In this document: piece after piece, positions 28,301-53,100 of the stretch | Numbering within the stretch: position 1 is the first letter of the stretch | How the letters are laid out: every line of letters starts with the position of its first letter | Source of the DNA: Owenia fusiformis | Taxonomy: Eukaryota > Annelida > Polychaeta > Sabellida > Oweniidae | Length of the DNA stretch: 64,000 nt | Reading direction: 5' to 3' | Assembly (NCBI GenBank): GCA_903813345.2 | Contig: CAIIXF020000001.1 | Span: 51,353,885 to 51,417,884, forward strand | Notes under the pieces: model-generated | What the model saw: the letters and a program-made list of their open reading frames with translations, nothing else | Database searches by the model: none | Told to the model about the DNA's origin: nothing | Position numbers and translations under genes: made by a program

Positions 28301-31300
28301 GTGGTGCATTGTGGTTCAAGGTAATTATAATGATATATTTTAATTGTTCTATGAGTTTGAATGGAATTGTTTTAGTAATTGACCAGTAATTGAGATGTGA
28401 ACTTTTGAAGTGATTTCCATGTGTTTTCATGTAATTTCGTCTTGATTTCTCATCAAATTATCTATGTTATCAACGTAATTAGCAAGGTTTCATTATTTAA
28501 AGTATACTGAAATTACCAGTGAACGTAAAATATGACCTTTTTAATGAAAGATAGGGGCTATCTGTTGTTTTGGATATGGGAACAGCCTGTTCTAGCTTGA
28601 GTGAGTCATCATCTAGCTCCTATTAGCAAAGCTCTCCTTCTAGCCTGTTACAGCACTTTACTGTGATTTAAGTGTTTGATTGGTCTTGGTGTATTTCAAT
28701 TGTGTATGTAACTTATATAAACTTACTTGTACTAATTATATGTGATTATTTTATAATTCTTGAAATAGATTAGATAATTTTAAACTTGTTGTTTTGTTTA
28801 TCTTTAAGGAATTTGGTGAGATATGTTTATTCCCCCTCCCACTTACATTTGACTTCCATTGACATGACATGGTACACATGACTTCTAGCCAGTTCCAGTT
28901 CCCTATGTCAACTGCAAGTGCAACACGCCCCCCCCCCCCATTCTAGTCACGTGTTACCCATAGCTAGAAGTGGCTGAAACCCTTATACACCCTTGGTACC
29001 TGTAGCTAGAAGTGGCTGGAACCCTTATACTTCCTTGGTACCCGTAGCTAGAAGTGGCTGGAACCCATATACATCCTTGGTTCTCATGGCTAGAAGTGGC
29101 TAGAACCCTTATACATCCTTGGTACCCTTAGCTAGAAGTGGCTAGAACCCTTATACATACTCGGTACATGTAGCTAGAAGTGGCTAGAAGCCTTATACAT
29201 CCTCAGTACCCGTAGCTAGAAGTGGCTAGAACCCTTATACATCCTTGATACCCATAGCTAGAAGTGGCTAGAACCCTTATATTTCCTTGGTACCCATAGT
29301 TAGAAGTGGCTAGAACCCTTAAACTTCCTTGATACCCATAGCTAGAAGTGGCTAGAACCCTTATACATCCCAGGTTACCCTTGCTAGAAGTGGCTAGAAC
29401 CCTTATACATCCCAGGTAACCGTAGCTAGAAGTGGCTAGAACCCTTATACATCCTTGGTACCCTTAGCTAGAAGTGGCTAGAACCCTTATACATCCTCGG
29501 TACATGTAGCTAGAAGTGGCTAGAACCCTTATACATCCTCAGTACCCGTAGCTAGAAGTGGCTAGAACCCTTATACATCCTTGGTACCCGTAGCTAGAAG
29601 TGGCTAGAACCCTTATACATCCTTGATACCCATAGCTAGAAGTGGCTAGAACCCTTATATTTCCTTGGTACCCATAGCTAGAAGTGGCTAGAACCCTTAA
29701 ACTTCCTTGGTACCCATAGCTATAAGTGGCTAGAACCCTTATACATCCCAGGTTGCCCTTGCTAGAAGTGGCTAGAACCCTTATACATCCCAGGTAACCG
29801 TTGCTAGAAGTGGCTAGAACCACTATTCACCCTGGATACCATTGCTAGAAGTGGCTAGAACCCCCAGCTTATTAATATAAACGCCATGAGTCCCATTTAT
29901 AACGTGTAGCCAGACAGTTGACACATTTATTACTGATTGACTATGAGACTTATGACAGACTGAGTAAGGACTTATAAACCCATATGCAATTGTCTTATTA
30001 TTCAATTGTTACTGTTTAAGTGATACTACTTTGGAACAAGATAACAGTCTGGGACTGTGTAATGCCAAGGCTACGCTACACTTGTATGGCAAATACATGG
30101 CCCACGATTGTTACACTGGTGGCAGCGTCGGGATTTAATTATTACCTAATAATTAGACCCACTTTATTTTTTAAAGAAATATTTCAAAGTAGCATTGTTT
30201 TCAATTGTTTAGTGATGTCAATGTTTTGTTTGATGCTAATTTTAATCTTGTTTTTCACACTGGTACGTGTGGATTGCCATTTTGAGAGTTCCAAAGACCC
30301 GGTCCTTGTAGCATTCCACTGGACTGTATCGTTTTAGGTTGGTGAAGTAGACCGTTACTCTACTTCAAAGTGTGAAGTGGTACTTATGTTGCCCTGCATT
30401 AGAACCACTGACCCTCTGGTTTGGTGTGTAGGTGGGACCTAACATACAAACATATCAAACCTTCCCGAGCCAAAATTGTTGATCCCAGTTGTAAAACCCT
30501 GCCTGACCATGACCCGATGAAACATCTAGCCGTGTCTAGAAAGCACATTCATTATGCATGTGTTGGCGTGGATGTCCCCCATACCCTGTTCCCGTCCTGT
30601 TAGTGAGTTTCTTTCGATAATGGTCATGATGGTCATGATTATGATGTGAGAGATAGCTTGGGTAGGCATACCCATACAGTTACCCGAATATGCCCCTCCC
30701 CCTTACATTCCATTTGCCCGAAATGTGTGTGATGGTAAGATCCTCTTGTGCTTTCCTGGTTGATGAGGAAACGTTGTGCTATATCTCCCTACGACTTGAG
30801 ATCTCCATAGCCATATCAGAACGTCTGGTATACCTTTTCTATTGCCTACTCCAACAATAGATCCCCTGCATTTGTCTGTCTGACTAGTATAGAGCCATTG
30901 GCTTGGGTAGGGTGGTCCAGGAAACCCCTGCCCAGTGATCCTACTTCCAAAGAGTCCCTACATTTCTGAATGTTCTTGTCCCATATCGTATATATGTGAC
31001 TAGGAAAGTTGTCTATTGGGAAATAGTCATTATATGACTGATAATGGGAGTAGCGATAATGGAATGTCCGAAGGCTGACCGAATTGGTCTGATCAAGTCC
31101 AGAGTGCAAACCTATGCAACTTCGTGGAAGTAGGTCACCATGCATATTACCATCTTATGTGTCAATGGTGGTCCCTTTCCAAGTAGTGATTGGGACCTGT
31201 TATCTGTACAGTCCGATAGATATTGGAGCTACTGCCTCTAATCTTGGTAAGCCGTATTGCCAAGATGTTTTACCAATATGTTTATAGCGAACTGTCAGCG

Positions 31301-34300
31301 GAAGTGAGCATGTCCGGCCGTACCTTTTGCTGGCATCAGTCAGCTTTTGTTCCAAGGAGGGCTGATTGTTACAAGTTCCCTATGTGGAGAGTAATCGTTC
31401 AACAACCCATGTACCATCTGATGTGGCTGACATTTACCGTATGTGTATATGGCATTTGCTACGAGAGCAAATGTTGTTTACTATGCGTGTACCTGTATCC
31501 TTGGCAACCTATTTTTCCTGAGAAGCCACGGGGTTGTTGAGTTTCTTAAGAGTGGAACCCTAATGATAGATGGTTTGAGTGGCCTGTGCTACTTGTTGTC
31601 CCTACTATCTCTGATTGCCAATATCCGGTAGATATTGACAAATTATGAATAAAGCTTCCATTAGCGTCCCCCCCCTTTAGTGATGTTGTTGCCTCCACAC
31701 GGGCAGATTGTCCCATGAATCCACAGAGTTGCTAACTGAACCATCAGATTGCATCTCTTCCAATGATGGCATGGTGAAGTGTACAGTCACTTGTGCCTCA
31801 TTGATTCATCCTTTCCATTATTGATTACCAACTAAAGTAATGTGAAACGACTGTCTACCCAAACCGTTACCTTGTTGCCCTAGTAGATGACCTAGGCTCA
31901 ACCGTTACACAATTGGAGTAATTGTGAACGTAATGTTTGAGGCAGAGTTCCCTTGTACATAGTGTATATAATTGTGATGGTGCCGAAAACTGTCAGTAAA
32001 ACAGTGCACCAACTGTGAAATGTTATCTCCATCCCTCAATGGTCCCTAAATGCCTAACTTCCAGCAATGTCACCCAGCTGTAGCCTATTTTATCTTGTCC
32101 CACAGTCTTAAAGTAGGTGGACATTGAATATGTGTGTGGTTACCATGGTTGAAGAGCCTATGAGCTATTATAGATATGAACGTCTATGTAGTGTGTCTCA
32201 TACAAGAGAATTATTCGTTGGCTGACGATGGGAGGAAGTTGTAGCTTTTGTAGATTGGAATATCTGCATGGCAGTGATACGAGAGTGGAGTTTCTCTTCC
32301 AGGTTTAGAGATGTCAACCACAAGCCAACAACATAGAGAGACATTGACGTGAACATTCTGTAACCATACACATAGGATTATAGGAGAATTGTACAGCATA
32401 TCTTATCTTCATACTGTATTTGACGTGCTATATATGAACTTATGACTCTCCCTGTTATACAGAGAAGCAATATGATGCAGGAATATCTAGACACATTACC
32501 GTGTCAACACTTACAATAACTTTTGATTATGCAGTGTTCTGGATACGACTAGTGCCAACTAAACATTCATTAGAATTCTACGAACGCTATCTTAATTACT
32601 ATAACTACAAAATATATGTGCAATTTGAACTCTTGATTTTTATGAAAATCTTTGAACCAAATGGATATTGTAATGACATGTTTTTCAGGTGATGCAAGTC
32701 ATAAGTGTATAACCTTGTAAACTACTGTATTATCATGTCACTTTTGGATCATGTATCATCTTTGATTTAAATACTTTTGTGTATTATTGATTGTGTTTTG
32801 ATTTGTAACTTGTGTGTAAAAGTTCGGGACGAACTTATTTTAAAGAAGGGGGGCAGTGTAACGACCCATCAGCTTGTCTACTCTTTCCAATGGTTTATAT
32901 CTGGTCTGATGTGCCGTTACTGAACCTTCTTATTGCATTGCTTTATTCAAAATAACTAACAAGTTCACTGTTCACCAGTATGGAGTTTTACTGTATTATA
33001 TATGCCCTGTATTTGCATGTATTCTGTGGCCAGCGCCTAAATAGCGCCAATGCTAGTTTTGTTTACAGTTGATGCAGAGTGCATCTGTACTTTGCTTTCT
33101 AAGCCTATAGTGACTGGGTATCCCCTTGTGAATTGTATGTTAACTTTTGTAAGAGTCATCATGAGTCATAGGCTGTGTAGCCTGTCCACTACTTCAGTGT
33201 CTGCAGTTACTCAGCTTAAGGATATAGTTCCCTTGTTTATTTTGCCTTATTGTGATTACTTTGACTTATGTATGTTATTTAGTATGTTTATTCTATTGTA
33301 TGCATGTTTACATATATGTACATAACTTTAGTTTGTCTTATTTTGAACTGTGATTCATCTTGTCATGTGATTTGGCGTAAGGATTTTATGCACTACTTGT
33401 CTTTTGGAATTTTCTCAATCATGGCGGACCAGTTTGTGTTTTCTCCTCATTTTCTTGGATTTATAGCAGTTTGCGTTGGTGAATCGTGGTGCATTGTGGT
33501 TCAAGGTAATTATAATGATATATTTTAATTGTTCTATGAGTTTGAATGGAATTGTTTTAGTAATTGACCAGTAATTGAGATGTGAACTTTTGAAGTGATT
33601 TCCATGTGTTTTCATGTAATTTCGTCTTGATTTCTCATCAAATTATCTATGTTATCAACGTAATTAGCAAGGTTTCATTATTTAAAGTATACTGAAATTA
33701 CCAGTGAACGTAAAATATGACCTTTTTAATGAAAGATAGGGGCTATCTGTTGTTTTGGATATGGGAACAGCCTGTTCTAGCTTGAGTGAGTCATCATCTA
33801 GCTCCTATTAGCAAAGCTCTCCTTCTAGCCTGTTACAGCACTTTACTGTGATTTAAGTGTTTGATTGGTCTTGGTGTATTTCAATTGTGTATGTAACTTA
33901 TATAAACTTACTTGTACTAATTATATGTGATTATTTTATAATTCTTGAAATAGATTAGATAATTTTAAACTTGTTGTTTTGTTTATCTTTAAGGAATTTG
34001 GTGAGATATGTTTATTCCCCCTCCCACTTACATTTGACTTCCATTGACATGACATGGTACACATGACTTCTAGCCAGTTCCAGTTCCCTATGTCAACTGC
34101 AAGTGTAACACGCCCCCCCCCCATTCTAGTCACGTGTTACCCATAGCTAGAAGTGGCTGAAACCCTTATACACCCTTGGTACCTGTAGCTAGAAGTGGCT
34201 GGAACCCTTATACTTCCTTGGTACCCGTAGCTAGAAGTGGCTGGAACCCATATACATCCTTGGTTCTCATGGCTAGAAGTGGCTAGAACCCTTATACATC

Positions 34301-36259
34301 CTTGGTACCCTTAGCTAGAAGTGGCTAGAACCCTTATACATACTCGGTACATGTAGCTAGAAGTGGCTAGAAGCCTTATACATCCTCAGTACCCGTAGCT
34401 AGAAGTGGCTAGAACCCTTATACATCCTTGATACCCGTAGCTAGAAGTGGCTAGAACCCTTATATTTCCTTGGTACCCATAGTTAGAAGTGGCTAGAACC
34501 CTTAAACTTCCTTGATACCCATAGCTAGAAGTGGCTAGAACCCTTATACATCCCAGGTTACCCTTGCTAGAAGTGGCTAGAACCCTTATACATCCCAGGT
34601 AACCGTAGCTAGAAGTGGCTAGAACCCTTATACATCCTTGGTACCCTTAGCTAGAAGTGGCTAGAACCCTTATACATCCTCGGTACATGTAGCTAGAAGT
34701 GGCTAGAACCCTTATACATCCTCAGTACCCGTAGCTAGAAGTGGCTAGAACCCTTATACATCCTTGGTACCCGTAGCTAGAAGTGGCTAGAACCCTTATA
34801 CATCCTTGATACCCATAGCTAGAAGTGGCTAGAACCCTTATATTTCCTTGGTACCCATAGCTAGAAGTGGCTAGAACCCTTAAACTTCCTTGGTACCCAT
34901 AGCTAGAAGTGGCTAGAACCCTTATACATCCCAGGTAACCGTTGCTAGAAGTGGCTAGAACCACTATTCACCCTGGATACCATTGCTAGAAGTGGCTAGA
35001 ACCCCCAGCTTATTAATATAAACGCCATGAGTCCCATTTATAACGTGTAGCCAGACAGTTGACACATTTATTACTGATTGACTATGAGACTTATGACAGA
35101 CTGAGTAAGGACTTATAAACCCATATGCAATTGTCTTATTATTCAATTGTTACTGTTTAAGTGATACTACTTTGGAACAAGATAACAGTCTGGGACTGTG
35201 TAATGCCAAGGCTACGCTACACTTGTATGGCAAATACATGGCCCACGATTGTTACATAAGTTTTACTATGTTGATAAATGTTGAAAAGATGTGTTGTCCA
35301 TAGAGAGCACAATAGAAATAATCAGTACCAATCTGAATTGGTAATTGGTAATTCATTAATTATACAGATTTGAATTTGTTACGTCAACAGAAATAGGTCC
35401 AGTAAACTATAATTTGGTATATAATAGTATGATAATCGACTCTCTTGTGTTCTACTTTTCCAGATGAAGCACATCCCTTACTTCTTCTTCAAGCTCACTG
35501 TTCTGGGTTTAGTGCTATGTAATTTCCTGGTAGGATTCATACTAGAGGTAATGCTATACAAAACAATTAATATATTGTTTTAAATTCATGAAATAATGTG
35601 AGTTTATGATATGCTTATGATATATAGGTAATAAAATTAAAGATATGTGAAAGTAATTGACTTAAATAAGGTAATGTTGTAAGACAATTGGATCTTCCGT
35701 CATCACTGTATTTAAGTTCACACATATAAATCCCATACTCTTACTTTAGGCCATTTCAAAATATGTTCAATATAGCACTGATTTGTCGAGTTCAAAAAGC
35801 CAAAGAAATTATTTTTTACAAGAATAACATTTGTTTGTTTATTTCAAAATCACACAAGAAAAATTTACAGAAATGGGTGAGACTTTTATCAAGTGTAGAT
35901 TCCCATTAAGAAAAATATCACAATTGTGCAAAGCTAGTCAAATCATTGATGCAGATTTTTCCTCGACTATTTTATTTTATACCAGAATGATTTTGTGATA
36001 TGTATTATTTCATTTATATTTTCAGGCCTTTTTACTGGACAGTGCAATATTAACTAAACTGTGTAACAGTATTAAGAGGAAAAAACACCCAAAAAACAAA
36101 TATAAAAGAATTGAGCAAGAAATGAGAATGGATCCTGATTGGCCACCAGTTGGTCAGGTGACTTTTGAAGAACCAATCCCTGGTGGACAAGTTAACAATG
36201 CAATTTCAGATATACTTCCAGGAGACATTGTATCAAATGACCCATACATCAATAGCTAG
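10455..36259 (+). CDS. ATP13A3: P5B-type ATPase, ATP13A3/4/5 group (complete, 28 exons)
   Basis: This is a P-type ATPase of the P5B class, the endo-lysosomal family that human ATP13A2/ATP13A3 represent (polyamine transport). Hand-spliced exons total 3606 bp, 1201 residues, close to the family norm of about 1200. Every junction is GT-AG and the frame never breaks. Hallmarks: TGES (exon 9/10), the TM4 motif PPALP (440-444), the phosphorylation site DKTGT (Asp483, split by intron 12), [10 protein letters not shown], and [10 protein letters not shown] at the P-domain hinge. Wording such as [14 protein letters not shown] and [11 protein letters not shown] is closer to ATP13A3 than ATP13A2. It converges with EXOC8 downstream. 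Odd points are the duplicated exon 15, and intron 26 (7.9 kb), which is nearly all one young LTR element. Exon coordinates are in the four block entries. Confidence 0.93.
12993..13210. repeat. Two-copy 109-bp tandem duplication in intron 6
   Basis: The block beginning TCCTTAAATTGCAAAAATAA at 12993 recurs at 13102, including ATTCTCTCTTACTGTTTGTG and GCATAGATGTAGACTGATT in both copies. The second copy ends close to the acceptor of exon 7. No coding content. Confidence 0.75.
13680..15773 (+). CDS. ATP13A3: ATP13A3-like exons 8-12: actuator domain and TM3-4
   Basis: Exons: 13680-13749, 14205-14336, 14514-14675, 14952-15109, 15585-15773 (residues 248-484). Exon 9 encodes [11 protein letters not shown] and NESMLTG; exon 10 completes the actuator-domain TGES dephosphorylation loop and has [11 protein letters not shown]. 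Exon 11 contains [12 protein letters not shown] and one membrane helix. Exon 12 holds TM4 with PPALPAAMT, then [11 protein letters not shown], and ends in CFDK, the first half of the phosphorylation motif. Splitting the DKTGT motif by a phase-0 intron after Lys is a checkable gene-structure marker. Intron 10 carries a partial copy of the GCCTCAGTCACA MITE. Confidence 0.92.
14706..14845. mobile_element. MITE family copy 2 (right end lost)
   Basis: It starts GCTTCAGTCACATTTACTCT and continues GGCGTATGGTGACTGTAGCT TCACAAA, matching the 5243 copy through the central TACTGC blocks. The inverted right terminus is not recognisable. It lies in intron 10 of the ATPase gene. Confidence 0.5.
16075..22890 (+). 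CDS. ATP13A3: ATP13A3-like exons 13-21: phosphorylation and nucleotide-binding domains
   Basis: Exons: 16075-16136, 16430-16574, 17875-18000 (alternative 19027-19152), 20108-20261, 20589-20709, 21087-21211, 21394-21587, 22182-22295, 22768-22890 (residues 485-872). Exon 13 opens [13 protein letters not shown]. Exon 14 has MASCHSLT and [10 protein letters not shown]. Exon 16 has [13 protein letters not shown] and KGAPE, the ATP-binding lysine loop. Exon 17 has GFRVIALAW. Exons 18/19 span the P-domain motif [19 protein letters not shown]. Exon 21 has FARMSPDQK and GDGANDCG, the magnesium-coordinating hinge. An acidic EEEE stretch in exon 19 is the usual variable linker. The intron following exon 20 includes repeat-derived sequence. 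Confidence 0.93.
16905..17092. mobile_element. Palindromic MITE in intron 14
   Basis: The left arm (AAGGTTGGTCTGTATGTTGA, then ACTAATTTTCATGA) and right arm (TCATGAAAATTAGT, then GGACATACAGATCTACCTTA) are inverted repeats of about 45 bp. They enclose a second inverted pair around GTGAAAAATATTATCACTCAT. There is no ORF. It lies between exon 14 and the duplicated exon 15. Confidence 0.6.
17875..18000 (+). CDS. ATP13A3: ATP13A3-like exon 15, version A (126 bp, phase 0/0)
   Basis: It encodes 42 residues beginning [20 protein letters not shown]. Human ATP13A3 has the equivalent stretch ending IMPTVVRPP between the [10 protein letters not shown] and GIVRQF motifs, so this is the ancestral position in the N-domain. 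Acceptor TACATGTAG; donor GAG/GTGTGC. It starts and ends at codon boundaries, as does version B at 19027-19152, so either can be used without frame change. Confidence 0.85.
18903..18995 (+). CDS. Candidate extra cassette exon (93 bp) of the ATP13A3-like gene
   Basis: This is an open, acidic stretch of 31 codons ([20 protein letters not shown]...) bounded by AG upstream (ACTTTGGAG) and a consensus donor GTATGT at 18996. It would begin and end in phase 0 and could sit between exon 15A and exon 16. The acceptor has a weak pyrimidine tract, and the open frame reaches upstream to 18859, so the left boundary is uncertain. Only 31 bp separate it from exon 15B. It may be a real optional exon, a decayed exon, or chance. 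Confidence 0.35.
19027..19152 (+). CDS. ATP13A3: ATP13A3-like exon 15, version B (126 bp, phase 0/0)
   Basis: It is a diverged tandem copy of exon 15A: the first 26 residues align position by position ([20 protein letters not shown] against [20 protein letters not shown]). The length is the same 126 bp and the phase is 0/0, but the last 15 residues differ. Acceptor TTGTAG; donor GGG/GTATAA, a little weak. The frame is uninterrupted and substitutions are mostly conservative (D/E, L/I, V/I, R/K), so it appears to be under protein-level constraint. It is most likely used instead of exon 15A. Confidence 0.8.
21758..21799. repeat. Near-perfect palindrome in intron 19
   Basis: The arm TAAGATGAATGCAAACTTCA and its inverse meet at CATATG with one missing base. 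The whole 41-bp stretch could extrude as a hairpin. I see no associated gene signal. Confidence 0.6.
23178..36259 (+). CDS. ATP13A3: ATP13A3-like exons 22-28: TM5-10 and C-terminus
   Basis: Exons: 23178-23384, 23724-23796, 24426-24576, 26512-26663, 27515-27603, 35464-35547, 36026-36259 (residues 873-1201). Exon 22 carries [17 protein letters not shown] and [17 protein letters not shown], the conserved entry to TM5. Exons 23-27 encode hydrophobic helices (for example [36 protein letters not shown]). Exon 28 is a basic then proline-rich cytosolic tail with DPDWPP, matching DPEWPP of human ATP13A3, and ends at TAG 36257-36259. A candidate AATAAA lies at 37272, beyond a SINE. Intron 24 is filled with a roughly 150-bp tandem repeat; intron 26 holds the LTR element. 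Confidence 0.92.
23797..24060. repeat. 130-bp tandem duplication starting at the exon 23 donor
   Basis: The intron start GTAAGAGATTACTTTACAA at 23797 recurs at 23927. Both copies continue with GAAGACACA, GAATTTGTCTCATTATGAC and TCTTTGA.CTGATGTCT. The duplication therefore copied the splice donor into the intron. Confidence 0.75.
24850..25560. repeat. Five-copy degenerate tandem repeat (141-163 bp) in intron 24
   Basis: Copies start near 24852, 25012, 25153, 25311 and 25474. Each contains AAAATGGCTGCCTTGACATT (or a close variant), CCAAAAAACTAATCAG, TAGATTTTCATACTAAGAA and a GTTCACC...AGACAAGA block. A weaker sixth copy lies near 25760-25930. Related sequence at about 60728-60776 carries the 2-kb TIR element insertion. 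Non-coding. Confidence 0.85.
26019..26275. repeat. Two-copy 129-bp GTGT-rich tandem duplication in intron 24
   Basis: The first block (CTTATGTGTCACTGTACTTC...) and the second (CTTATGTGTTACAGTACTTC..., from about 26148) share TTATTTTTGTGTGT and TATTTAGCCTT. The open frames over it are a by-product of the repeat. Confidence 0.65.
27672..30115 (+). repeat. 5' LTR
   Basis: 2444 bp, TG...CA ends. It includes a run of 12 C near 28929 and the 42-bp minisatellite (28963-29865, 22 units). Long unit-length LTRs of 2.4 kb are unusual next to a 2.7-kb interior. Confidence 0.92.
28963..29865. repeat. 42-bp minisatellite inside the 5' LTR (about 22 units)
   Basis: The core unit is GCTAGAAGTGGCTAGAACCC followed by TTATACATCC and a variable GGTACCC-type end. 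Variants recur in order every eight units (about 338 bp; for example the TACTCGGTACATG and CCTCAGTACCC variants), a higher-order repeat. Minus-strand open frames across it arise because 42 is a multiple of three. Confidence 0.9.
30117..30135 (+). promoter_or_regulatory. Primer-binding site, tRNA-Leu type
   Basis: One base after the LTR end, TGGTGGCAGCGTCGGGATT is complementary to a leucine tRNA 3' end: TGG pairs with CCA, then GGCAGCG with the CGCTGCC acceptor strand, with about two mismatches further in. This sets the element's orientation as plus. Confidence 0.75.
32820..32856 (+). promoter_or_regulatory. Hairpin and polypurine tract before the 3' LTR
   Basis: A perfect 7-bp stem with a 3-base loop, AAGTTCG GGA CGAACTT (32820-32836), is followed by AAAGAAGGGGGGCAG (32842-32856) ending directly at the LTR TG. 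A short hairpin upstream of the purine tract is seen in many Ty3/Gypsy elements, so that superfamily is the best guess. Confidence 0.65.
32857..35256 (+). repeat. 3' LTR
   Basis: 2400 bp, nearly identical to the 5' LTR. It has 10 C instead of 12 in the C-run and one minisatellite unit fewer (about 21 units, 34142-35003). It ends TTACA at 35256 before the TAAG target duplication. Confidence 0.92.
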
Positions 36260-38155: not shown

Positions 38156-41100
38156 CTGAAATCACAATGGATGAATCAATCAAAATTTCATTATTTTTTA
38201 TAAATTACAATCATACATGGTAGGCTGCAAGAAAACCAGGAACATTATGCAGTGTAACAGTGATAAAGTGTAACAATGTCTAGACTATATTTTTTACTCT
38301 TTTATCATTTAGTATTGATAGCCATATGGCTGGGATATAGGGACTTAACTTAACTAGAACCTCTAGATATAACAAAATATTGAGACCATTTCTGGAAAAA
38401 TTTCATGTATTGCAATTTATGGAATTCAATTGCCTGATTTCCATAATTATGATGTGGAATATACAGAGGAGCTATAGGAATGGTTCAGGACTAAGTAGTC
38501 TGTATACAGATTCAACTATGTACAAAAAGTTCTTTATACAGAAAAAATAGGGACTGTTTGTCTTTCCTATTCAAGAATTATAAATGATTTAAATTTTCAA
38601 ACCTGAGTTAATATGAAAGGGAAGGGAATTATTTTCTAGAATAAGGATCATCTTCTAATAGCTCTTATATAAGAGGTCATTATAAGCAGGGAAGATGTGT
38701 AGCCTAATTTATCAATGGTAAATATATTGTGAATTGAAGCATTGGGGTTTATTGAAGCATTGGGGTTTATATTACATGGAAAGGTGCTAAAATATCGCAT
38801 TTCCTAAAAAAATGTAACCATTATTATGGTCACATTGATAACTGTAAATAAGTATAGAAGCAATTTTAGAATATGTCCGTTACATTACAGATATTGATAA
38901 AATACTTATGATTTGAGGCAATGTTTTCCCCAGTTGATACCATATTGGAACAAGGCATTAACATGCAAAATGTCACCACCTGTCATTTGTTACAGATACC
39001 TTAATTTGTTATAGACACCATGTTAAAGACGCTGTGTTACAGACACCGAAAACCATCCACAAAAAGTTGGAGACTATAACAATATGTAGTGATAAAAAAT
39101 GGTGCATCCTTTTAATGTAAAATGGGACAAGTGCATGTAGCAATATAGGGAGTAGTAACATACAATAATATGTACATAAGCCTTAAATAATATGGAATGG
39201 TCCAGGACTAAGTAGTCTGTATACAGATTCAACAATGTACAGAAAGTGCTTTATACAGTAAAATAGGGACTGTTTGTCTTTCCTATTCAAGAATTATAAA
39301 TGATTTAAATTTTCAAACCTGAGTTAATATGAAAGGGAAGGGAATTATTTTCTAGAATAAGGATCATCTTCTAATAGCTCTTACATAAGAGGTTATATAA
39401 GCAGGGGAGATGTGTAGCCTAATTTATCAATGGTAAATATATTGTGAATTGAAGCATTGGGGTTTATTGAAGCATTGGGGCTATATTACATGGAAAGGTG
39501 CTTAAACATCTCATTTCCTAAAAAAAATTGATAACTGTAAATAATTATAGAAGCAATTTTAGAATATGTCCGTTACATTACAGATATTGAAAAAATACTA
39601 ATGATTTGATGCCATGTTTTCCCCAGTTGAAACCATATTGGAACAAGGCATTAACATGCAAAATGTCACCACCTGCCATTTGTTACAGATGCCTTAATTT
39701 GTTATAGACACCATGTTAAAGAGGCTGTGTTACAGACACCGAACACCATCCACAAAAAAGTGGGAGACTATAACAATATGTCACCACTTCTGGTAGTGAT
39801 AAAAAAAATGGTGCATCCTTTAAATGTAAAATGGGACAAGTGCATGTAGCAATATAGGGAGTTAGTAACACATACAGTAATATGTACATAAGCCTTAAAT
39901 AATATGGATGTGCTTGCTTATAAAGGGTTATAAAACTGTTTATTACAAAGCTCCAAAGAAGTTGGTTTCTTTCTGAAAATTCTCATCAGCAAGTGGCAAC
40001 AAAGTTTCAGATAAAAATATCTCATTTTTCCTTATGAATTCTTCCTGCAATAAAACAAATGCATGCAGTTAGTGTAGTAGTGGAACAATGAGAGATATAT
40101 AATAAAACAAATGCACGCAGTTCGTGTAGTAGTGGAACAATGAGAGATATATAATAAAACAAATGCACGCAGTTAGTGTAGTAGTGGAACAATGAGAGAT
40201 ATATAATAAAACAAATGCATGCAGTTAGTGTAGTAGTGGAACAATGAGAGATATATAATAAAACAAATGCATGCAGTTAGTGTAGTAGTGGAACAATGAG
40301 AGATATATCATAAAACAAATGCACGCAGTTCGTGTAGTAGTGGAACAATGAGAGATATATCATAAAACAAATGCACGCAGTTAGTGTAGTAGTGGAACAA
40401 TGAGAGATATATAATAAAACAAATGCACGCAGTTCAAATGGTTCAGAACTTTTGGATCAACCCTCGTATAATAAAACAAATGCACGCAGTTAGTGTAGTA
40501 GTGGAACAATGAGAGATATATAATTAAACAAATGCACGCAGTTCAAACGGTTCAGAACTTTTGGATCAACCCTCGTATAATAAAACAAATGCATGCAGTT
40601 AGTGTAGTAGTGGAACAATGAGAGATATATAATAAAACAAATGCATGCAGTTAGTGTAGTAGTGGAACAATGAGAGATATATAATAAAACAAATGCACGC
40701 AGTTAGTGTAGTAGTGGAACAATGAGAGATATATCATAAAACAAATGCATGCAGTTAGTGTAGTAGTGGAACAATGAGAGATATATAATAAAACAAATGC
40801 ACGCAGTTAGTGTAGTAGTGGAACAATGAGAGATATATCATAAAACAAATGCATGTAGTTAGTGTAGTAGTGGAACAATGAGAGATATATAATAAAACAA
40901 ATGCACGCAGTTAGTGTAGTAGTGGAACAATGAGAGATATATCATAAAACAAATGCACGCAGTTAGTGTAGTAGTGGAACAATGAGAGATATATCATAAA
41001 ACAAATGCACGCAGTTAGTGTAGTAGTGGAACAATGAGAGATATATAATAAAACAAATGCATGCAGTTAGTGTAGTAGTGGAACAATGAGAGATATATAA

Positions 41101-44100
41101 TAAAACAAATGCATGCAGTTAGTGTAGTAGTGGAACAATGAGAGATATATAATAAAACAAATGCATGCAGTTAGTGTAGGAGTGGATTAAGAATGAGAGA
41201 TATATAATTGTTGGCATTAATTCAATAAGAAAGAAATAATAAAAATAAATGTGAAATAAAAATAAAAAATGTGTGAGTTTATGCCGGACTCCCATTGCAT
41301 TGTTTATCTTGGTTAGCTTGCTGCATCATTGGATATCCTTATCAATGTATACTCTGATGCATCACTGGATACCCTCATATCACTGGATACCCTGGTGCAT
41401 TACTGGATACCCTAATATCACTTTATATTAGGGTATCCAGTTTTATACCCTAGTGCATCACACGGTACTCTAACACATCACTGGATACAATATTGACTCA
41501 CTGGATACCATGATGTATCACTGAATAACATTATATTCTTCAAGCATCCATGGATTTTCGAGATAAGATAAACATGCTAATTAGATTTAGTACTGGAATA
41601 AAACATAAATCTGACAGTATAAGACAAACTACACGATGCCCATGTCAAGCAGCGTGCCTACTAGGCACGCAGTTTGAAACTCTGACAAACTGCGCGCATA
41701 TTTCAAAATGCGAGACGGGGAGGACACGACTCCCAAAAAGAGCCAAAATACGAAAAATACAAGGTTAGTCTCGTTCTAAAGATAGTACCATTCTGTGAAG
41801 ATGAACTTAATTTACTTATAGTACTCAATGTTTTTCCCGATGTAAACCTAGTTATCTCAATATAAGGGTCTTAAGTAACTTCTGTGTTCAAAATTTACAG
41901 TGTAAAGTTATATCTATGTCTTTTTATCGTCATTTGCCGTTTATTCAGCCATTGTGTCTGTGTATGCTAGAATATATAGGATCACTCCATCTGATTAAAT
42001 CAGCAAAGTTTGTGTTCAAAACGATAATACGCCATTAACGTGATTTAAACATTTTTCTTGTCAAACTGCGCACCTATATTCACATGTATTTCCCAAACTG
42101 CGTGCCTAAATTTCCAAACTGCTTCCCTATCCAAGCTTGTTTTGTATTATTAGAAAACATAAGCGCCATACAAGGCACATATGTGTCTAATAGTAGAACC
42201 CCATAATTGAAACACTATGAGAGTCCATCCACCAAGATGGTGATCTGAAAATAAAAGTTTTTTTCGTTCCCAACTTAATTGTCACTTCTATTATACATTT
42301 TGACTTTCAATATGAAAATCTCATAAAATCTGACGATAAAGCAAAATTTCCAAAGCTACATGAAAAACACCTACACGTGCCTCTGTAGAAATTCCAATGA
42401 TAATATGTAGTTTTAATAGTGTATGCGCACAGTTTGTAATTTCTGGTTAAAATAGGCGCGCAGTTTGTGATTTATTTCTTTTTAATCTCCTGATTATTTG
42501 TTTTATCTCGAAATATTTTGAATTATACATGATAAATGTGTAAGGAATTAAATATAAAACAAGTCTAAAGTATTTGTCATTTATGTTTAAAGTGCTAGAT
42601 CGTAATTTACGTATAAATTCCCGTTAAATCAGTGACGAAAATGCCATTAATCTGCTTATGTTTTAAAACTTAGATTCATTTGCACATAGTTTTTGCTAGT
42701 ATTTGCAAGATTCGTATATTCGCCACAGAATGAACGCATTGAACAAGAAAACAATGCAGGATAAATGTCTTTAAATTACGTTTCAAAATACAGACTCCAA
42801 CTTAAATGATGCAATGTTCTTAGGCACGCAGTTTGTGATCGAAACAAGTAGGCGTGCAGCTTGACATGGGCACCGTGAACTAGACAACAGCAGCGCCAAA
42901 GCGTAGCAAATCCCATCGAACAGCCATGGCTGGCATTTTAACAAACAAAGTATATAAAAAATGTTATTACACAGTGTGCCATGCTTATAGTATTCACATA
43001 CCAAATATGAAAAATGGCCGCCTTCTACCAAAAGTGTCATTAGACAGTGAGTCATGCTTATAGTATTCACATACCAAATATCAACAAAGTCGCTCCACTT
43101 CTATTTTTGAGTTACAGCAAAAATCGTAAAATAGCTAGTAAAGGTCACCATTTTTCAAGATGGCTGCCATGTGCTTCCTTAATATTTAGATTTCTAACTT
43201 TATTTATGTCCTATATAATTTTTTTACATTTAAAACATATTGCTATTACAGTTTTACATTATATTGTACTTAAATAACTGTAAAATTGGCACTAAAATTT
43301 TTGAATGGGTGGCCATTTTGAAAATCAGCTTTCAAGCAGAACTTCTACACCCATAGGGTATATGTGTACAAAATATGAACAAAATCGGGCCAACGGTATT
43401 GGAGTTATTGCCTGGACGTATGTACAGACGGACGGAGGCGTTCCCTGCCCTATATCCCTCCGAACTTCGTTCAATGGGATAAAAATTGGTAAAGTACTAT
43501 TCATACAAAAACAATGCAGGAATTAAATCATAGAGAACTAGATAACAGCAATGTCAAAGTGTAGCAAATCCCATGGAACAACCATGGCTGCCATTATTAC
43601 AAAATCCTTCCACTACTTTTTCAGTTATAGCAAAAATCGTAAAACAACACACATAAAAATGGTCGTTCACTAGTCAAATTGTCATAAGGAAGTGTAATAT
43701 GCTCCCAAGTAGGTACATATACATTTCAACAAAATCCCACATGTGCATGCAAATAGCAGCCATTTTTCAAAGCCAATTAATTAATAATTAATGAAGACCA
43801 AGATTCTTTGACTTATGGCGCGATATATGACCAAAACCAAAAAATGTTATTCTGTTCATTGTTAAAGCAGATATGAAATGGTATTTTTAACCTACAGGAA
43901 TCAATATAATTTTTTGATAAATGTATTTGGACATGTTTTCTCATCAGTAGTGCGAAAACTATTTCACTCTAACGATCGTTATAGCTGCTTAATAAGCAAT
44001 ATTCGAATTGGTTGTGACGTTATTGGCCCCCACGTGATCTCTCACTGGTCCCCACGTGGCCCATAACGTCATAATGCCTAAATGTTTTGTTTTGGTTTAC

Positions 44101-47100
44101 ACTACAATCCTATGGTTGCCGTGACGTTGTGATTACTAAGGAACCAACAAACCAAAGCTATATTTTGTATATGACGTTACTTATCACGTGGGGGCCAATT
44201 TGATCGATCAGTTAGTTTTGTTTCGTTATTTATGACCGTTAGCAGTTATCTAACATTTATTTTATAATGGCTATCGCAAGAACTCTACGTTGGGCTTACA
44301 ATGGAGAAAACCGCATTTTTGTAGCTGCAAGTTGAGAAAAGCTATTTCAGTTGTCCTTTAAAAGACCGAAATTGCATTCAAAGCCAAATGTAAAATTGTC
44401 TGTTGTTTTAAAGGATTCATATATTTTTCACGTTGCATCAAATAACTACAATGTTGTTTTGCTATGCCTGTAACAGTTGTTACAAATTTTTATCATGAAA
44501 CCTCTTATTTTCTGACTGTAACTGACTTACAAAGGGTGTCTACAAGTTGTCAACAAGTTGTCAAAATATATTGATATAAGTAACACTGTGTAAAATGTTC
44601 TATCAATTTACTTTATCCCTAATGGACAGTTCATTCAGAAAATAATACAGACCTATTAGTTCACCTTTAGAAACTTCCTGATGTCTTAATTAATTTCTGA
44701 AGATTCCATTGGTATATAAGCAAAGTAATAGCTCCTGAAATTTCATATAAGCGTTACAGAGCATCAAAGCACACTATATACTGTATATATTATCATACAT
44801 ATTGCAGAAGGTAAGTCTAAATTTTGTTTTTAATTAGTCAAATTGTTTTTAAAATGGGTTTATATAAAATAATTTGTTTTATTCTTCCTCTTTGATTCTC
44901 AGAATAGCGCTTTTAAAAATAAAAATTAAAAACTTTGTGCAAGATAACTGATAATTTGAAAATAATTGGATAAGCAATAATGTCAATATATGTATGGAAC
45001 TTAACACTGGAGAGACATACAATGTTTTGAAGATTTTGTTCCAAAAATGTATTTGAGAAATCTTATTTTTGTCTACTAAAAACAATAAAATTGTCTACTT
45101 AAAATAGTAGACAATTCTCAGTACTGCTAATTAAACATATAATTAAACTTCACCACTATTTTTGATTAGAAAGATTATATTTGTTTTACATCATGATCAC
45201 GCCCGGTGATCGTGAAAATGGGACGGAGGGGGAGCAGGCAATTTCCGCTAGAAAATTCAACAAATCTGGTAAAATTATTTTTTCAAGACAGAGTTTACGA
45301 TTGAATTGCAAATTGAATAAGCGCACGGTATGATAAAATATGTTAGGTATTCTAGATTTATTTTTCAACCGATACTCTTTTAAGATATAAGATCTATTAA
45401 AAAAGGCGCAACGCAACCAACGTGCAAAAGTCAAAGTTTTTGCTATAAATCAAGCAACAATGGACTACACGACCTGTAATAAATACTTGTAAGTGATGTT
45501 ATCATAACTTAATTAATGTCATTGCTGAATTTATAAAATAAGTTTCCATACGTAAAATAAAAAATAATCGAAAGTAATTAAAATGGGACGGAGGGGGGGA
45601 GGGGATGGAGGGGGGGAGTAATAATTCTATAAAGTGAAACAACTTCACACGAATTCTTGTATTTGAAAAATGAACTCATTAACTTAGTAAGAAACTGGAT
45701 GATATACCCCTGGAGACTGAAAAATGGGGACATTTGGAGTAAAAGGACTTAAAGTCGCGAAACATCTCTAATCATGTCTTATATACATATTGCTCCCCCC
45801 TCCGTCCCCTCCCCCCCCCCCTTCGTCCCAAATTCATTATTTTCGATTATTTTTTATTTCACATATGGAAACTTATTTCATAAATTCAGCAATGACATTA
45901 ATTTAGTTATGATAACATCACTTACAAGTATTTATTACAGGTCGTCCAGACCATTGTTGCTCGATTTATAGCAAAAACGTTGATTTGTGCCTGTTGATGG
46001 CCTTGCGCCTTTTTTAATAGATCTCATACCTTAGATGCGTATCGTTTCAGAAAAAATCCCAGAAAACCTAACATATTCTACCATACCGTGCGCCTATCCA
46101 TTTAGCAATTCAATAGTAAACTTTTTCTTGAAAAAATAAATCTTCCAGATTTGTTGAATTTCCTAGCAGAAATTGCCTGCTCCCCCCCTCCGTCCTATAT
46201 TCACGATCACCGGGCGTGATGATATTTACTTTGTTGTTTAACTGATTGAAAAAAATTAAAAATACACACTAGACATTTTGTATAGCTAGGGCTGCATATA
46301 GAACAATCACCAAAACTAAACCCATTTTCAAAAATCCATTAGAATAAAACAATTATTATTTTCATCACAAATTCTTTTTGAGAAATATTTGTATGAAAGC
46401 ATAAAAATAGCAGTTTAAGTGATTGAAAATAATAAAATTGTTTTTTTCTCACTTATTCATACAAAGTATATTTTTTCTAAAAAGTTGAAACCAAATTATA
46501 ATCACTGTCCATGTATTATTGAGTATTAGATGACAACACAGTACATTGTGGGACACTCGGGCTATAAGAAAATCAGATAGCACATGTAGAACTTCGCAAT
46601 GAATTTTTTATCTACTGGTTTACAAAAAATTCTTGCATTATATATATATCTTTTATTGACTCAATAACCATGTCATGTAAATGACATATCAGTCACTACA
46701 GTGTACAAAAACTACAAACTACAACTACATACTACAAGACTACTTTACATCAGTTTCACATGTCAGGGTATGATATCAGTGTGGTGTATCCATAATACAT
46801 GTGTTTTAAAAAAAAATGTTTACATAATATTAATCATTTTCCAAATTTTTAAAAGAGTGATATACAAATTTGGCTAAATGTAAGTTAACATAAGAGCTTT
46901 TACTAGACATAATAGTTTCAAACAGTTTATCTGGATCTTTGCACTGTTTCAGATCAGATTCTAAAGTTTCAAACAAAAGTTCTCTGTGTTTTAAGTTCTT
47001 TGTACAGCTTGTGATAAAGTGAAGCTCATCCTCAATTACCCCACATTCACTACACAACCTTTCACTTGTGGGTTTTGGCTTTGGTTTTGAGTACCGCCCA

Positions 47101-50100
47101 ACTTCTATCTGTAATTTATGTGAACTCATCCTGAGCCTAGTTAATGTATGTCTATACTTTTTATTTTGAATGTTTAAATATAATTCTTTGGTGAAAGTAT
47201 TTTTGAATTTTATATAAGTTCTAAGAACAGGAAAAGTAAGAATATCCTGTTTCCATTGAAGTGCATAATTACTTTTTAATTTCTTTGTGATCATTTGAAT
47301 AAATATATAATCATCTTCAACATTTTGAGTCAACCAATGAGAGAATAAATCACATTGTTTTAATATGTCAATAACTTTACTGGACCAAGTGCCAGAGTAA
47401 CCTAAACCATTTATTTCAAGGTCATACAAATATGATTTATTGAGCATATTTTCTTCAGGAAATTTCATTAAACGCAGCCAATGTTTAATCAGCTTAATGT
47501 TGAAACGAATTTTTAAAGGATAACGTCCTAGCTCCCCATAAACAGCCGGTGTAGCTGTTGATTTTTTCACACCAAGCAAATTATCCAAGCTCACTTATTT
47601 ATTAATTTTATTTACTTAATCTGTAAAACTATTTACAAAAATTACATCACGATAAATACCAGGACGCCAAAAGGCATATATCGGTGTTATTCATGAGTTG
47701 AAAAAAGGGTATACATTAAAAAGAAATATATATATATATATACTGTACTCCCAGTTAATTTCGTGAGTTTTAATGTCGCAAATTTTGAGAAAACACGATT
47801 TCGCAGCTATTGAATTTCCGGATTTCACAAGTTAAAATCTAATTATTCTCTGAATCCTCAAGCTCTGTAAATAAAGTTACCTCATGTACAGTAAGTACAC
47901 CTCTATTACATTGTCATTTTTCGTATATTTGATCTAATGAGACACTGTAAAAGACATAGTTGCTTAGAATCTCATTTATCGCCTTATAAAACTGTACAAA
48001 CGTTTTACAAATCATTGAAATGCAATGGAGTTCCAGGTTATAAGATATTGACAATTTCTTGAAGATCTTACCACAATCGCGAAAAGAGCGAAACTAAATC
48101 GCACGCAAAAAATACTGGGAGTACAGTAACTAGACCTAATGGCCGACAGTCTATACATGCAATATATGTGATGTATGGTAATATGATTATAAGTGATGAT
48201 GTGCCTAGTTAGAGTGATTTATATTACTGTCATTAATATTTTGGAAGAATGTTGGGTTTATATGATTTCTTGACATGGGATTTGTTATAAGATTGTTAAA
48301 GTGTGTCATCAACAGTGGATCAAAGAGAATTAAGGTCCATAGCCTATCTGAGAGATTTCCTTTTGACATATATTAAGGTTATACTCGTATATCTATACAA
48401 TATTTATTCTTTTCCAAAGGTTTGCTTAGAAGTGATGTTATATCGTTGTTATTATAAGAATAATGGTACATAAAAATTTTTGTGTTGAGGTTATCTTTTA
48501 AAATTCTATCTTTGTTATAGACAAACAAACAGCGGACTCGAAAATTAGAGCTTATAAGGTTTGAAGAAGCTATAACCGATAGATAAGCATGATGAATAGT
48601 ACGCTTGGACCAAAGATTGGGGCCAACCATACAGACATGTATAACACCACGAGCATAATAGCTGATGAAATTCAAGGTACGCTTGGACCAAAGATTGAAG
48701 CCAACCATACAGACATGTATAACACCATGAGCATAATAGCTGATGAAATTCAAGGTACGCTTGGACCAATGATTGAAGCCAACCATACACACATGTATAA
48801 CACCACGAGCATAATAGCTGATGAAATTCAAAGTACGCTTGGACCAAAGATTGAAGCCAACCATACACACATGTATAACACCACGAGCATAATAGCTGAT
48901 GAAATTCAAGGTACGCTTGGACCAAAGATTGAAGCCAACCATACACACATGTATAACAACACCACAAGCATAATAGCTGATGAAATTCAAAGTACGCTTG
49001 GACCAAAGATTGAAGCCAACCATACAGACATGTATAACACCATGAGCATAATAGCTGATGAAATTCAAGGTACGCTTGGACCAATGATTGACGCTAACCA
49101 TACAGACATGTATAACACCACGAGCATAATAGCTGATGAAATTCAAAATACGCTTGGACCAATGATTGAGGCCAACCATACAGACATGTATAACACCACG
49201 AGCATAATAGCTGATGAAATTCAAAGTACGCTTGGACCAATGATTGACGCTAACCATACACGCATATATAACAACACCACAAGCATAACAGCTGACGAAA
49301 TTCAAGAACTATGGGTACACTTCATAATTGCCATTTTCCTCATCTCTTTTATCACTGTGGGGAACAGCCTAATCCTCTGGACAGTTTACAAAATAGAGTC
49401 AATTCGTTCAGTTACAAGTCTTTTCATCGTGAATCTTTCACTGGTTGACTTTTTAACTGGTGCCATTGTGTTGCCAATAACAATGACTATTAACTACATT
49501 ATACCTCTTTTTACAGGCAATTATGTACAAAACAAGTACTACTGCATAGTGAAAGCATTTTTGTTGACATTATTTTTGTTATTGTCAGTGTTTGGGTTGA
49601 TAGGTATTGCCATAGAGCGTTACATAGCTATAGTATTTCCACTGCGTTACGTTAGCCTGATGACCGTAAAAAATGCAAAGATCATAATTGTAAGCATATG
49701 GGTGTATGTACTGTCAATGATGCTTGTAATATTCATAAATGATTTAAATGTGTATGAAACTGGGCAACAATGTATAAATGACAATGTCATCGAGCAATCT
49801 TACTACTTGTTTATCAAACTGAACATTTTTGTCCCAATTCTTATAATTTTTGTTGTTTATACGAAGATCGCTTGGGTTGCATACAAGCATCGAGCCCAGA
49901 TAATAAGTGAATTAGCCAGCATTGATAATGCTAGAGCTGTTGCATACAAAAATGAGCACTCGATTATGAAAGCCACTATCATTGTCAATGTTGTTTTTAT
50001 GATTATGTATGGACAATTTCTGTTAATATCATCACTCGAACTAAGCACTAAATGGTACGGGACATTAAGGTATTTTTCAGGACACATCTTGTCGCTAAAT

Positions 50101-53100
50101 AGTGGAGTGAACCCCTGGATTTATGCAATCCGCAACAGGGAATTTAAGAATGCCCTGCTGGCTGCTCTTAAGCTGAAACGAAATGGGGCTTCAATAGAAT
50201 AGAATTCAGATGATTCAAGATAAGACCCTTTATCATTTAAGCTTAGGTGGTGGTGTGTACTGGTGTACTGTACATATTCATTATTTCCTTAATAACCTAG
50301 ATGTGAGTAGTTACCAGTTTCATCACCAGGCTTATTCAGGTCAAATAACATGGCAGGTATATTAGAAACTTCCCTTAACTTGAATATTCATCAGTTCTAG
50401 TGGTTCAATTAATATTAGCCTTATGTTTCTGATAGTTATACAAATTAAAATACACGTATGTCCAGTAAAAGAAAATATAATCTATTCAATACAAGAAAAG
50501 ATATATCACTTTTTTTTACCTAGAAGTCACGTTTTCAAAGAAAATTAAATTTTCAAAGCTCATAACCACATTTCTAAATGTAGTTTGCCTGTAGATTTCA
50601 AATATGATATCACTTTGACTGAGTTTAGAATTTTTAATGATGTAAATGATGTAAAGATTATTTCTACTTGCATCTAGTTTGTTAAAACCATAACTGGTGT
50701 TTTAGTAACTAAAATGTCTGCTGACACTATTTTAAAAAACACTGCTCTTTGGCTATTCAATTACTTATTGGAAAAATCTATCAACGACCTATCATTAACA
50801 ATATCATACCTCTTATCACAAGCAGAGATGAACATGTACTATGTATGTAAATGGTGGCTATTTTACGAAAGTGTAAGAGATCTACTATGTAAAATTGATA
50901 TAAAAGCATTTTATTCAAGTTAATATAGCACTTGTAGACTCCTTAGTGATATAAATTGTAATTATGTTATATATACAGGGTGGGCCAAAAAATAATTCCC
51001 AAGTTTAAAGATGAATAACATATGATACATGTTAAATCATGTATTGTATATAATTTTGAAGATAAATCATTTCCTAACAATATGATACCATCTGATTGAA
51101 AAAACGTTGTTTTCTTGTGGAGTTAGAGGTTAAAATTGACACCACTGAATCATTCATCTTTAAACTTGGGTATTGGTTTTTTGCCCACCCTGTATATATC
51201 ATATACATATATGTATATATTTTTGTTTGTTAATGTTCACTTTATTGGATTCATCTCAATAGATATTTTTCAAAGGACCAATAAATGAATAAAAGATTGA
51301 TTTGAGGAGTGTGTGCATACTGAGACTAACATACCTAATCTATGTTAGTCTCAGGTGCATATCACCCTTCATGAATTTTGTAATAAAGCATGGTTGTAGA
51401 TGTAGTTATGTTTCTTGTTGTGTTTTAAGTCATGTAACTGATTTGAAATGTCAATAAAATATTGCAATTACACTATAATACACTGAACAGATATTTTGTT
51501 TTTCCTGATAAAGGGAAAATACATGTATATTTTTCTTACTGTATATATTTTATTATTTACAGTCCTCACACTGACTAAATACTTAAAGGCCCCAAGTAAA
51601 GTTTGAAAATATGTTTAATCATTCATTTACTATATTTCATAAAATTGTGAAAAAAGCTGCCACCTTTTCATTTCTCAAATACTCAAATGTCCCTGCATTT
51701 TTCAAAATAAAAGTTGACATTTTTTAATCATCAAATATTCCACTATACAGTGCAAACATATTAACTTTTTAATACCATTTCGAAGATTAAACAAAGGACA
51801 TACTGTTTCAATAACAAATGTCATATCATTGTAATCTCACTCAGGCGGCAAAACTTTTTTGAAAAAATCAAAAAAATTATATGTCAATCTTTTCTAAATA
51901 TCCTAAACTATATTGTTTTTTAACTATATATATTTTGAAATGCATTTTTCTTGAACCACTTTGATGCATGAATGAGTTAAATTCTCATTATTTACTCAAA
52001 TTTCTAAAATTTAGTTTTAGACTTTTGATAACATTTAGTAAGACTACAATATAAGCCAAAGTCTTTTAAACTTTACATGGGGCCTTTAATAATCAAACTA
52101 AAAATAATAAACACTTAAACATAGGCATTAATGTTATACATGTATTCTGAAGGATGGACAAATATAGAGTTCCTTGATAATAAAGTAACATAAGTCTCGG
52201 CTTTAAAGATCTCTGGTCTGCCACAAAGGTTTAATGGTTGCAAAGTTGTCTATTAGTATTCCTAATTTAAGCATTCTCTACTATTTCTCCCAACTATAGT
52301 GTGTCTCATGAAAGTTTTACCATTTTTAAGATATTTGATTTGAATAACTTGCTCCAAATTGAACCAATTTTATTTAAAATCATCTACAAGTTTCCAAGAG
52401 TTCATATCAGATTAGATTTTAATCTGACCTTTGGTTGACCTTCAGTGACCTTTGAAAGGTAAAATTTTCAATGAAGATCGCAAAAATTCTAATAAATAGC
52501 ACCATGGTCCATGGGTATTGGGCTCACATTCTATACATGTTTTCAAAATACCATTGTTGAACCTTTAAAAGCCATGTTTAGACTGAAGATTGAAAGTGTA
52601 ACCTTTAAAACGAGGTACATGTGTAATTTCCAAGGTGGAGTGACTTTTTCACATCAGTCTTTAACATAGGATTTGATCCAATGATTCAGATTAACCAATT
52701 ATTATTGTTAGCAAATTGATCTAGGATCTTTTAGACTTATAACCAATAAGGACCAAAAAAAGTTTTTTGACAACTTGTAGACATCATTGTTAACTTAAAA
52801 AATAAGCATATTGATTGAATCCTTTATTTAAGAGATACATGATACATGATATTTCGGCAATTAAAGTTGTGACCATTTCTTAATTTTATGAGATATTTTG
52901 CCACAACTTCTAGACATTATGACACTTGCTGCCTGTACAATTTAATGCAGCACTTTTGGATTTAGAATATAAAATTTGAAAAGATAGCAAATGATAGTAT
53001 CTTTCCATTCCATGTACATATGAGCACTTTTAATATCTACCTTGGGCAGTTTTATGACAGGTGCCAATTTGGCATGGACGTAGCAGTAGCACCTGATATG

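Follow-up and report, generated by a model that had tools for sequence, protein, structure and literature searches.

The stretch of DNA analysed here, called the window, comprises 64,000 nucleotides of the Owenia fusiformis genome (C1:51353885-51417884; positions below are those of the window unless a chromosome is given). Its main feature is a receptor gene in which a tandem array of potential N-glycosylation sites is placed ahead of a seven-transmembrane body. The gene is a 537-residue open reading frame on the forward strand (48589-50202). In a preliminary description of the same DNA it had been presented as a rhodopsin-type receptor preceded by nine near-identical units of about 26 residues, with roughly 15 or more N-X-S/T motifs (sequons) in total, and these claims were borne out both by the domain search and by the analysis of the array.

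The body of the receptor, which occupies residues 240-537 and includes the C-tail and the stop, was assigned by its match to PF00001 (7tm_1), covering residues 258-512 and the full profile (1-260) with an E value of 2e-32 and 113.1 bits against a cut-off of 30.5. This was the sole Pfam domain above its cut-off; no GAIN or GPS domain was found ahead of the helices, and BROMI_N reached 20.9 bits, below the cut-off of 25. The closest solved structures by sequence were those of the adenosine A2A receptor (7e-23) and of beta-1 adrenergic receptors (8e-22), matches which fit a class A assignment and name no ligand. On the Kyte-Doolittle scale about six helix regions exceeded 1.6 (residues 237-267, 275-307, 316-352, 357-388, 403-433 and 461-486), and the seventh helix stays below this value, yet lies within the Pfam match. 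The class A signatures, namely the cysteine of the third transmembrane helix (TM3), the loop-2 cysteine, E/DRY and NPxxY, are present as NKYYC, GQQC, ERY and NPWIY, respectively. The CWxP motif of TM6 is common in class A and not obligatory; it is absent from the receptor, in which the corresponding segment (about 49990-50034) reads VVFMIMYGQFL. Both W and P are missing at this position in 10 of the 11 members of the family described below, C12_3662 retaining the proline (MYTPF).

The N-terminal tail (N-tail) consists of residues 1-239 and contains nine in-frame units upstream of the first helix (48598-49305), seven of 26 residues and two of 27. Tandem Repeats Finder returned a period of 78 bp with 9.0 copies and 93% matches (48599-49306, score 1166), together with a further period of 315 bp in 2.3 copies. 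The units 1-4 and 6-8 measure 78 bp, the units 5 and 9 81 bp. Base differences amount to 1-6 among units 1-8, to 7-11 between these and unit 9, and to 6-12 between the units of the window gene and those of its closest paralogue, located on C6. The units 2 and 6, which are one base apart, have NTM in common, and this, taken with the 315-bp period, points to additional copying in blocks of four units.

The N-tail carries 19 sequons, or 17 if two overlapping NNTT pairs are counted once each. They are distributed as N3, an NHT in all nine units and a second site in seven of the nine, the units 2 and 6 having NTM instead. Shuffling of the tail composition gave a mean of 4.2 sequons, and none of 2000 shuffles reached 19; because the copied units are not independent, this comparison is less fair than the test on the relatives without an array given below. 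The tail is acidic (net charge -25), with a Ser and Thr content of 20% and nine Pro in 239 residues. On the antisense strand one frame is open across the whole array and another across most of it, so that an open frame alone is weak evidence for a gene. The features of the locus are collected in Table 1.

Table 1. Features of the receptor gene, in window positions, with the basis of each.
Feature	Position	Strand	Basis or remark
Putative 5' untranslated region of the coding exon	48521..48588	+	Acceptor-like TTATAG/ACAAAC at 48520/48521; sequence only
Met-Met-Asn: start codons and first sequon Asn; A at -3	48589..48597	+	Met-Asn start in 7/8 relatives without array (C12_3662: MD)
Unit 1, 26 aa, 2 sequons in addition to N3	48598..48675	+	Unit comparison
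Unit 2, 26 aa, second sequon lost (NTM)	48676..48753	+	Unit comparison
Unit 3, 26 aa	48754..48831	+	Unit comparison
Unit 4, 26 aa	48832..48909	+	Unit comparison
Unit 5, 27 aa, NNTT	48910..48990	+	Unit comparison
Unit 6, 26 aa, second sequon lost (NTM); 1 base from unit 2	48991..49068	+	Unit comparison
Unit 7, 26 aa	49069..49146	+	Unit comparison
Unit 8, 26 aa	49147..49224	+	Unit comparison
Unit 9, 27 aa, NNTT, most divergent	49225..49305	+	7-11 differences from the other eight
Seven-transmembrane body, C-tail and stop (residues 240-537)	49306..50202	+	PF00001; paralogues 45-90% identical
Tract near-identical to the C6 paralogue (12/718 differ)	49306..50023	+	Likely gene conversion

A search of the genome at 45% identity or above, in which scoring covered the best 81 of 897 candidates and the family counts are therefore lower bounds, returned at least eleven close receptors including the window gene. 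One fragment (C12:3658758) was found in addition and excluded from the counts. The receptor body lies in a single open frame in 10 of the 11 members, the copy on C10 being broken. Eight relatives have no array, and their tails of 13-33 residues hold 27 sequons; when each tail was shuffled the mean was 10.3, and none of 5000 shuffles reached 27 (C10 was left out of this test, and C6_93 was cut to its MMNTTPEP start). The sequons of six of the eight occupy positions 2-4, 12-13 and 18-21, the exceptions being C12_3662, with sequons at 8 and 20, and C222, whose 13-residue tail has one at 2 only. The comparison of the window unit, STLGP...ANHT...YN(N)TTS..ADEIQ, with the start of the C9 relative, MNSTLGQ...ANHT...NTNNTS...EI, is informative in this respect: the unit reads as the ancestral tail block minus its first residues. 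Judged by these sequences, the array arose by amplification from an ancestral tail that had about 30 residues and three sequon positions.

The closest relative (C6:8173392, L015) shares 90% identity with the window gene over residues 159-537 and contains three units of the same block. Flanking DNA is colinear in pieces on both sides of the two genes (window about 44608-51582, L015 847-6293), which rules out a retrocopy origin of either and identifies the pair as the product of a DNA duplication. The preliminary description had pointed to the unit motif as a probe for other G protein-coupled receptors (GPCRs) of the species. The array protein did match the C6 paralogue, and C1 and C6 were the only loci found at E < 1e-10, the other matches in the genome having E values of 0.002-0.8. 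The array on C10 was missed by this search at E <= 1; a miss there is therefore no proof of absence.

The C10 array (C10:34236282, L016) has a period of 60 bp, 13.6 copies and 92% matches, and its unit, MNSTLGQ..ESNHTNLVSI, provides two sequons per 20 residues and holds the start Met within it. Since both the span of the block and its length differ from those of the C1/C6 unit, we infer two separate amplifications, one for C1/C6 and one for C10. A tree of the first receptor half, which C10 entered only up to its frame break, does not settle the placement of C10 and is neutral on this point. The C10 gene is broken by an in-frame stop in the array, by some 600 bp that set a lone first unit apart from the array, and by a frame break in the body; past the stop there is an open piece whose tail of 217 residues contains 19 sequons. 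All the steps in array length (78, 81 and 60 bp) keep the frame. A lability of unit number is supported between loci only, by nine units in C1, three in C6 and 13.6 copies of a different unit in C10. With the C10 array as query many repetitive frames were retrieved at 18-37% identity among the best 150 of 401 candidates, several of them rich in stops, and these were taken as composition matches. A start motif of 20 bases, for which as many as three mismatches were allowed, was not commoner than its control (24+44 vs 35+29), and the matches with no or one mismatch were all in C1, C6 and C10. An array produced by faulty assembly or by a mixture of haplotypes would be conceivable insofar as a single assembly was used; the units are non-identical, though, a second locus has related units and the DNA search gives one C1 copy only, which makes such an origin close to negligible.

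The wider occurrence of N-tail repeats was surveyed in 20 further receptors (the 16 that follow the family in the list and four chosen from further down) and in 20 long-frame picks of 152 listed. In the first 20 none of the rows of Tandem Repeats Finder lies within the coding part of a tail, the tail of L037 having been wrongly delimited. In the second set a 143-bp, 2.4-copy row overlaps the start of the tail of L055, in which a protein repeat is not evident. A shuffle test for protein repeats was applied to 39 of 42 tails (the 40 surveyed plus C1 and C6, after removal of L037 and of two tails shorter than 20 aa), and C1 and C6 ranked first. The class A receptor L060 (C3:2610615) showed a degenerate repeat of 12 residues in its N-tail, each of the three units having a sequon (0/300 shuffles), and L046 was equalled by 1/300 shuffles, near the chance expectation for 37 tests. 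Tandem N-tail arrays are thus rare among the receptors examined, yet not confined to one event.

Between the bodies of the C1 and C6 receptors, 18 of 199 synonymous sites and 19 of 695 nonsynonymous ones are changed (p 0.0003), and over the last 98 codons 14 of 65 and 15 of 229, respectively (p 0.0014); the body is therefore under purifying selection. The differences are unevenly distributed, 12 being located in the first 718 bases and 25 in the last 176. The best break in a scan was at 50024, and none of 300 permutations was equally extreme. A like unevenness is found for the synonymous differences alone (4/134 vs 14/65). In the flanks the upstream windows are 77-85% identical, the downstream ones range from 40%, in non-aligning stretches, to 91%, and the alignable pieces mostly show 78-87%. 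The uneven distribution within the body and the diverged flanks thus point to a probable gene conversion between the two chromosomes that kept the 5' part of the body alike, while the tails and flanks went on diverging; the likely tract of conversion is listed in Table 1.

In the window gene the closest in-frame stop lies 9 nt upstream of the ATG. An AG site with 7-10 pyrimidines out of 12 is found 46-103 nt upstream of the ATG in nine of ten family members, C12_6029 having a weak AG site only (5/12). In the window gene this site is at -68 (9/12); a further AG at -6, past the stop, has 5/12 and could still act as a weak acceptor. A signal-peptide exon upstream was considered and rejected, given the stop 9 nt before the ATG and only the weak AG between them. 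An in-frame stop also separates the best AG site from the ATG in eight of ten members. The exceptions are C6_93 (stop -216, site -103), in which an upstream in-frame Met would give a 75-residue tail with five sequons, and C222 (stop -63, site -60). Translation probably begins at the first ATG, which has an A at -3 and shares its Met-Asn start and the acceptor-like site upstream with most relatives. Each of the nine units has at least one in-frame ATG, and internal starts are therefore conceivable: the transcripts could begin inside or past the array, which would then be untranslated, or not always translated, and a start at the in-frame Met of unit 9, the last one, would give a 22-residue tail that keeps its sequons, near the ancestral length. 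The context of the first ATG, the acceptor-like site 68 nt upstream, placed as in the relatives, and the frame-keeping changes in array length all argue against this explanation, which we regard as very improbable.

The array might also form a regular beta-solenoid ectodomain. In the best of five single-sequence AlphaFold2 models, strands extend across residues 9-234 with block means of the predicted local distance difference test (pLDDT) of 79-90 over residues 11-180; the other four models have whole-protein means of 40-47. An antisense nonsense frame of the array, folded alone as a control, was nevertheless modelled as strands nearly throughout, the best of its five models having a mean pLDDT of 84.9 and the others 50-72. 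Such an artefact of AlphaFold2 on repeats is described in PMC11795689, and Foldseek gave no PDB match at E <= 0.001. With a control as confident as the array itself and no structural match, the solenoid was ruled out, any residual probability being minimal. The helices were poorly modelled (mostly pLDDT <50), and the model was not used for them.

From these data the following course of events can be proposed. A short sequon-bearing N-tail would have been amplified in frame to nine units by unequal exchange or slippage. The tail, translated from the first ATG, would enter the lumen of the endoplasmic reticulum (ER), where many of its sites, up to 17-19 in number, would receive N-glycans, and at the cell surface it would form a stalk that is flexible, acidic and coated with sugar. 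The main effect of this stalk may be to adjust, through the number of units, the export of the receptor from the ER, its stability at the surface or the access to its ligand pocket; it is in this sense that we infer the mucin-like stalk of the preliminary description. The alpha-1D adrenergic receptor offers a likeness, being a class A receptor with a large N-tail whose N-glycans can be required for both its biogenesis and its trafficking, as stated in PMC7190626; it differs in having two sites, and tandem repeats are unmentioned in that text. Taken as a whole, with the gene structure, the source of the unit, the second array and the constraint on the body as its foundation, the reading of the gene as an intact, lineage-specific rhodopsin-class receptor with an amplified, displayed and glycosylated N-tail is favoured, with moderate confidence.

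Several observations weigh against this reading. Selection on the sequons within the C1 array is not evident from the unit comparison, the pooled ratio of nonsynonymous to synonymous differences (pN/pS) being 0.73 for the nine units and two of nine second sequons being lost, and the longest array, that of C10, belongs to a broken gene. Together with the different unit numbers of close paralogues, these facts would suit an array that is a passenger, in which the disordered N-tail of young duplicates tolerates in-frame duplication and the number of units drifts without effect on the receptor. Opposed to this are the low pN/pS of the three C6 units (0.22), the recurrence of N-tail sequons in divergent relatives and the NHT kept intact in 12 of 12 C1 and C6 units, although the changes are too few overall for the last point to count as a test. 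The passenger explanation is possible, if rather doubtful.

A second group of objections to a displayed stalk concerns topology. No signal peptide and no hydrophobic stretch were seen in the 239-residue tail (the Kyte-Doolittle mean over 19 residues peaks at 0.56); that the tail crosses the ER membrane can thus not be taken for granted, surface delivery is to be understood as a prediction, and translocation is the weak link, a tail of this length without a signal peptide being unusual. The insertase known as the ER membrane protein complex (EMC) is stated to be unable to translocate long N-tails in PMC10155758, so that Sec61 would presumably translocate the tail of the receptor. The array might consequently hold down surface expression, or some of the receptor might keep its tail in the cytosol. 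This seems improbable, as sequons would be pointless in the cytosol and the tail is acidic, a property with which a tail went in better according to the same paper (PMC10155758).

The preferred reading of a displayed tail could be extended to a more speculative one. The trapping of a translocating tail by glycosylation is a general idea of topogenesis, and a sequon every 26-27 residues or fewer, glycosylated on emergence, might prevent the back-sliding of a tail devoid of signal peptide, the array being then both a translocation ratchet and a dial of length. The recurrent amplification of N-tails (C1/C6, C10 and C3) would in that case be the route of this lineage to hyperglycosylated receptors. 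We consider this extension unlikely.

Other repeated and mobile elements occur in the window. The segments 27815-30115 and 33000-35256 form a near-identical tandem duplication with an offset of about 5.2 kb, 99% identical over the first 2 kb, and each copy has a 42-bp array of about 21 units. A 52-bp tandem array with 22 copies and 90% matches lies at 40049-41208, and an open 1212-aa non-LTR retrotransposon frame with endonuclease and reverse transcriptase domains at 5726-9364.

As regards known systems, adhesion GPCRs of the EMR2/CD97 type have long glycosylated ectodomains, and the window gene resembles them in the long N-terminal region ahead of the seven helices, for which glycosylation is predicted only; it differs in its class A body, in a tail where no further Pfam domain exceeded its cut-off and in that no signal peptide was seen. 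Cell-surface mucins are built on variable-number tandem repeats (VNTRs) that are O-linked and rich in Pro, Thr and Ser. They have in common with the array the multiplication of glycosylation sites by tandem repeats, whereas the sites of the window gene are N-linked sequons, and Ser and Thr are comparatively few in its tail. The dopamine receptor DRD4 is a class A receptor with an in-frame tandem array in its coding sequence, a 48-bp VNTR of exon 3 with polymorphic unit number; there the array constitutes the third cytoplasmic loop, whereas in the window gene it is in the N-tail with at least one sequon per unit (DRD4 after PMC7031506). The DRD4 VNTR is the nearest case that can be named, and what is new here is the place of the array and the glycosylation site in every unit. 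The preliminary description had held that this architecture is not known from any described receptor family. A receptor with an N-tail sequon array was indeed not found in a library of open-access papers, which is not all the literature, but within the genome the architecture is shared by the C6 and C10 paralogues.

If the tail is made and displayed, the family would provide a natural length series, with a single tail, three units and nine units on related bodies, those of C1 and C6 differing at 12 of 718 bases over roughly the first five helices. Such a series would allow one to ask how the length of the N-tail and the number of N-glycans control biogenesis, surface residence and ligand access. 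The idea of a coding VNTR in a receptor would then shift from a cytoplasmic loop to an extracellular tail, with glycosylation sites added by each unit.

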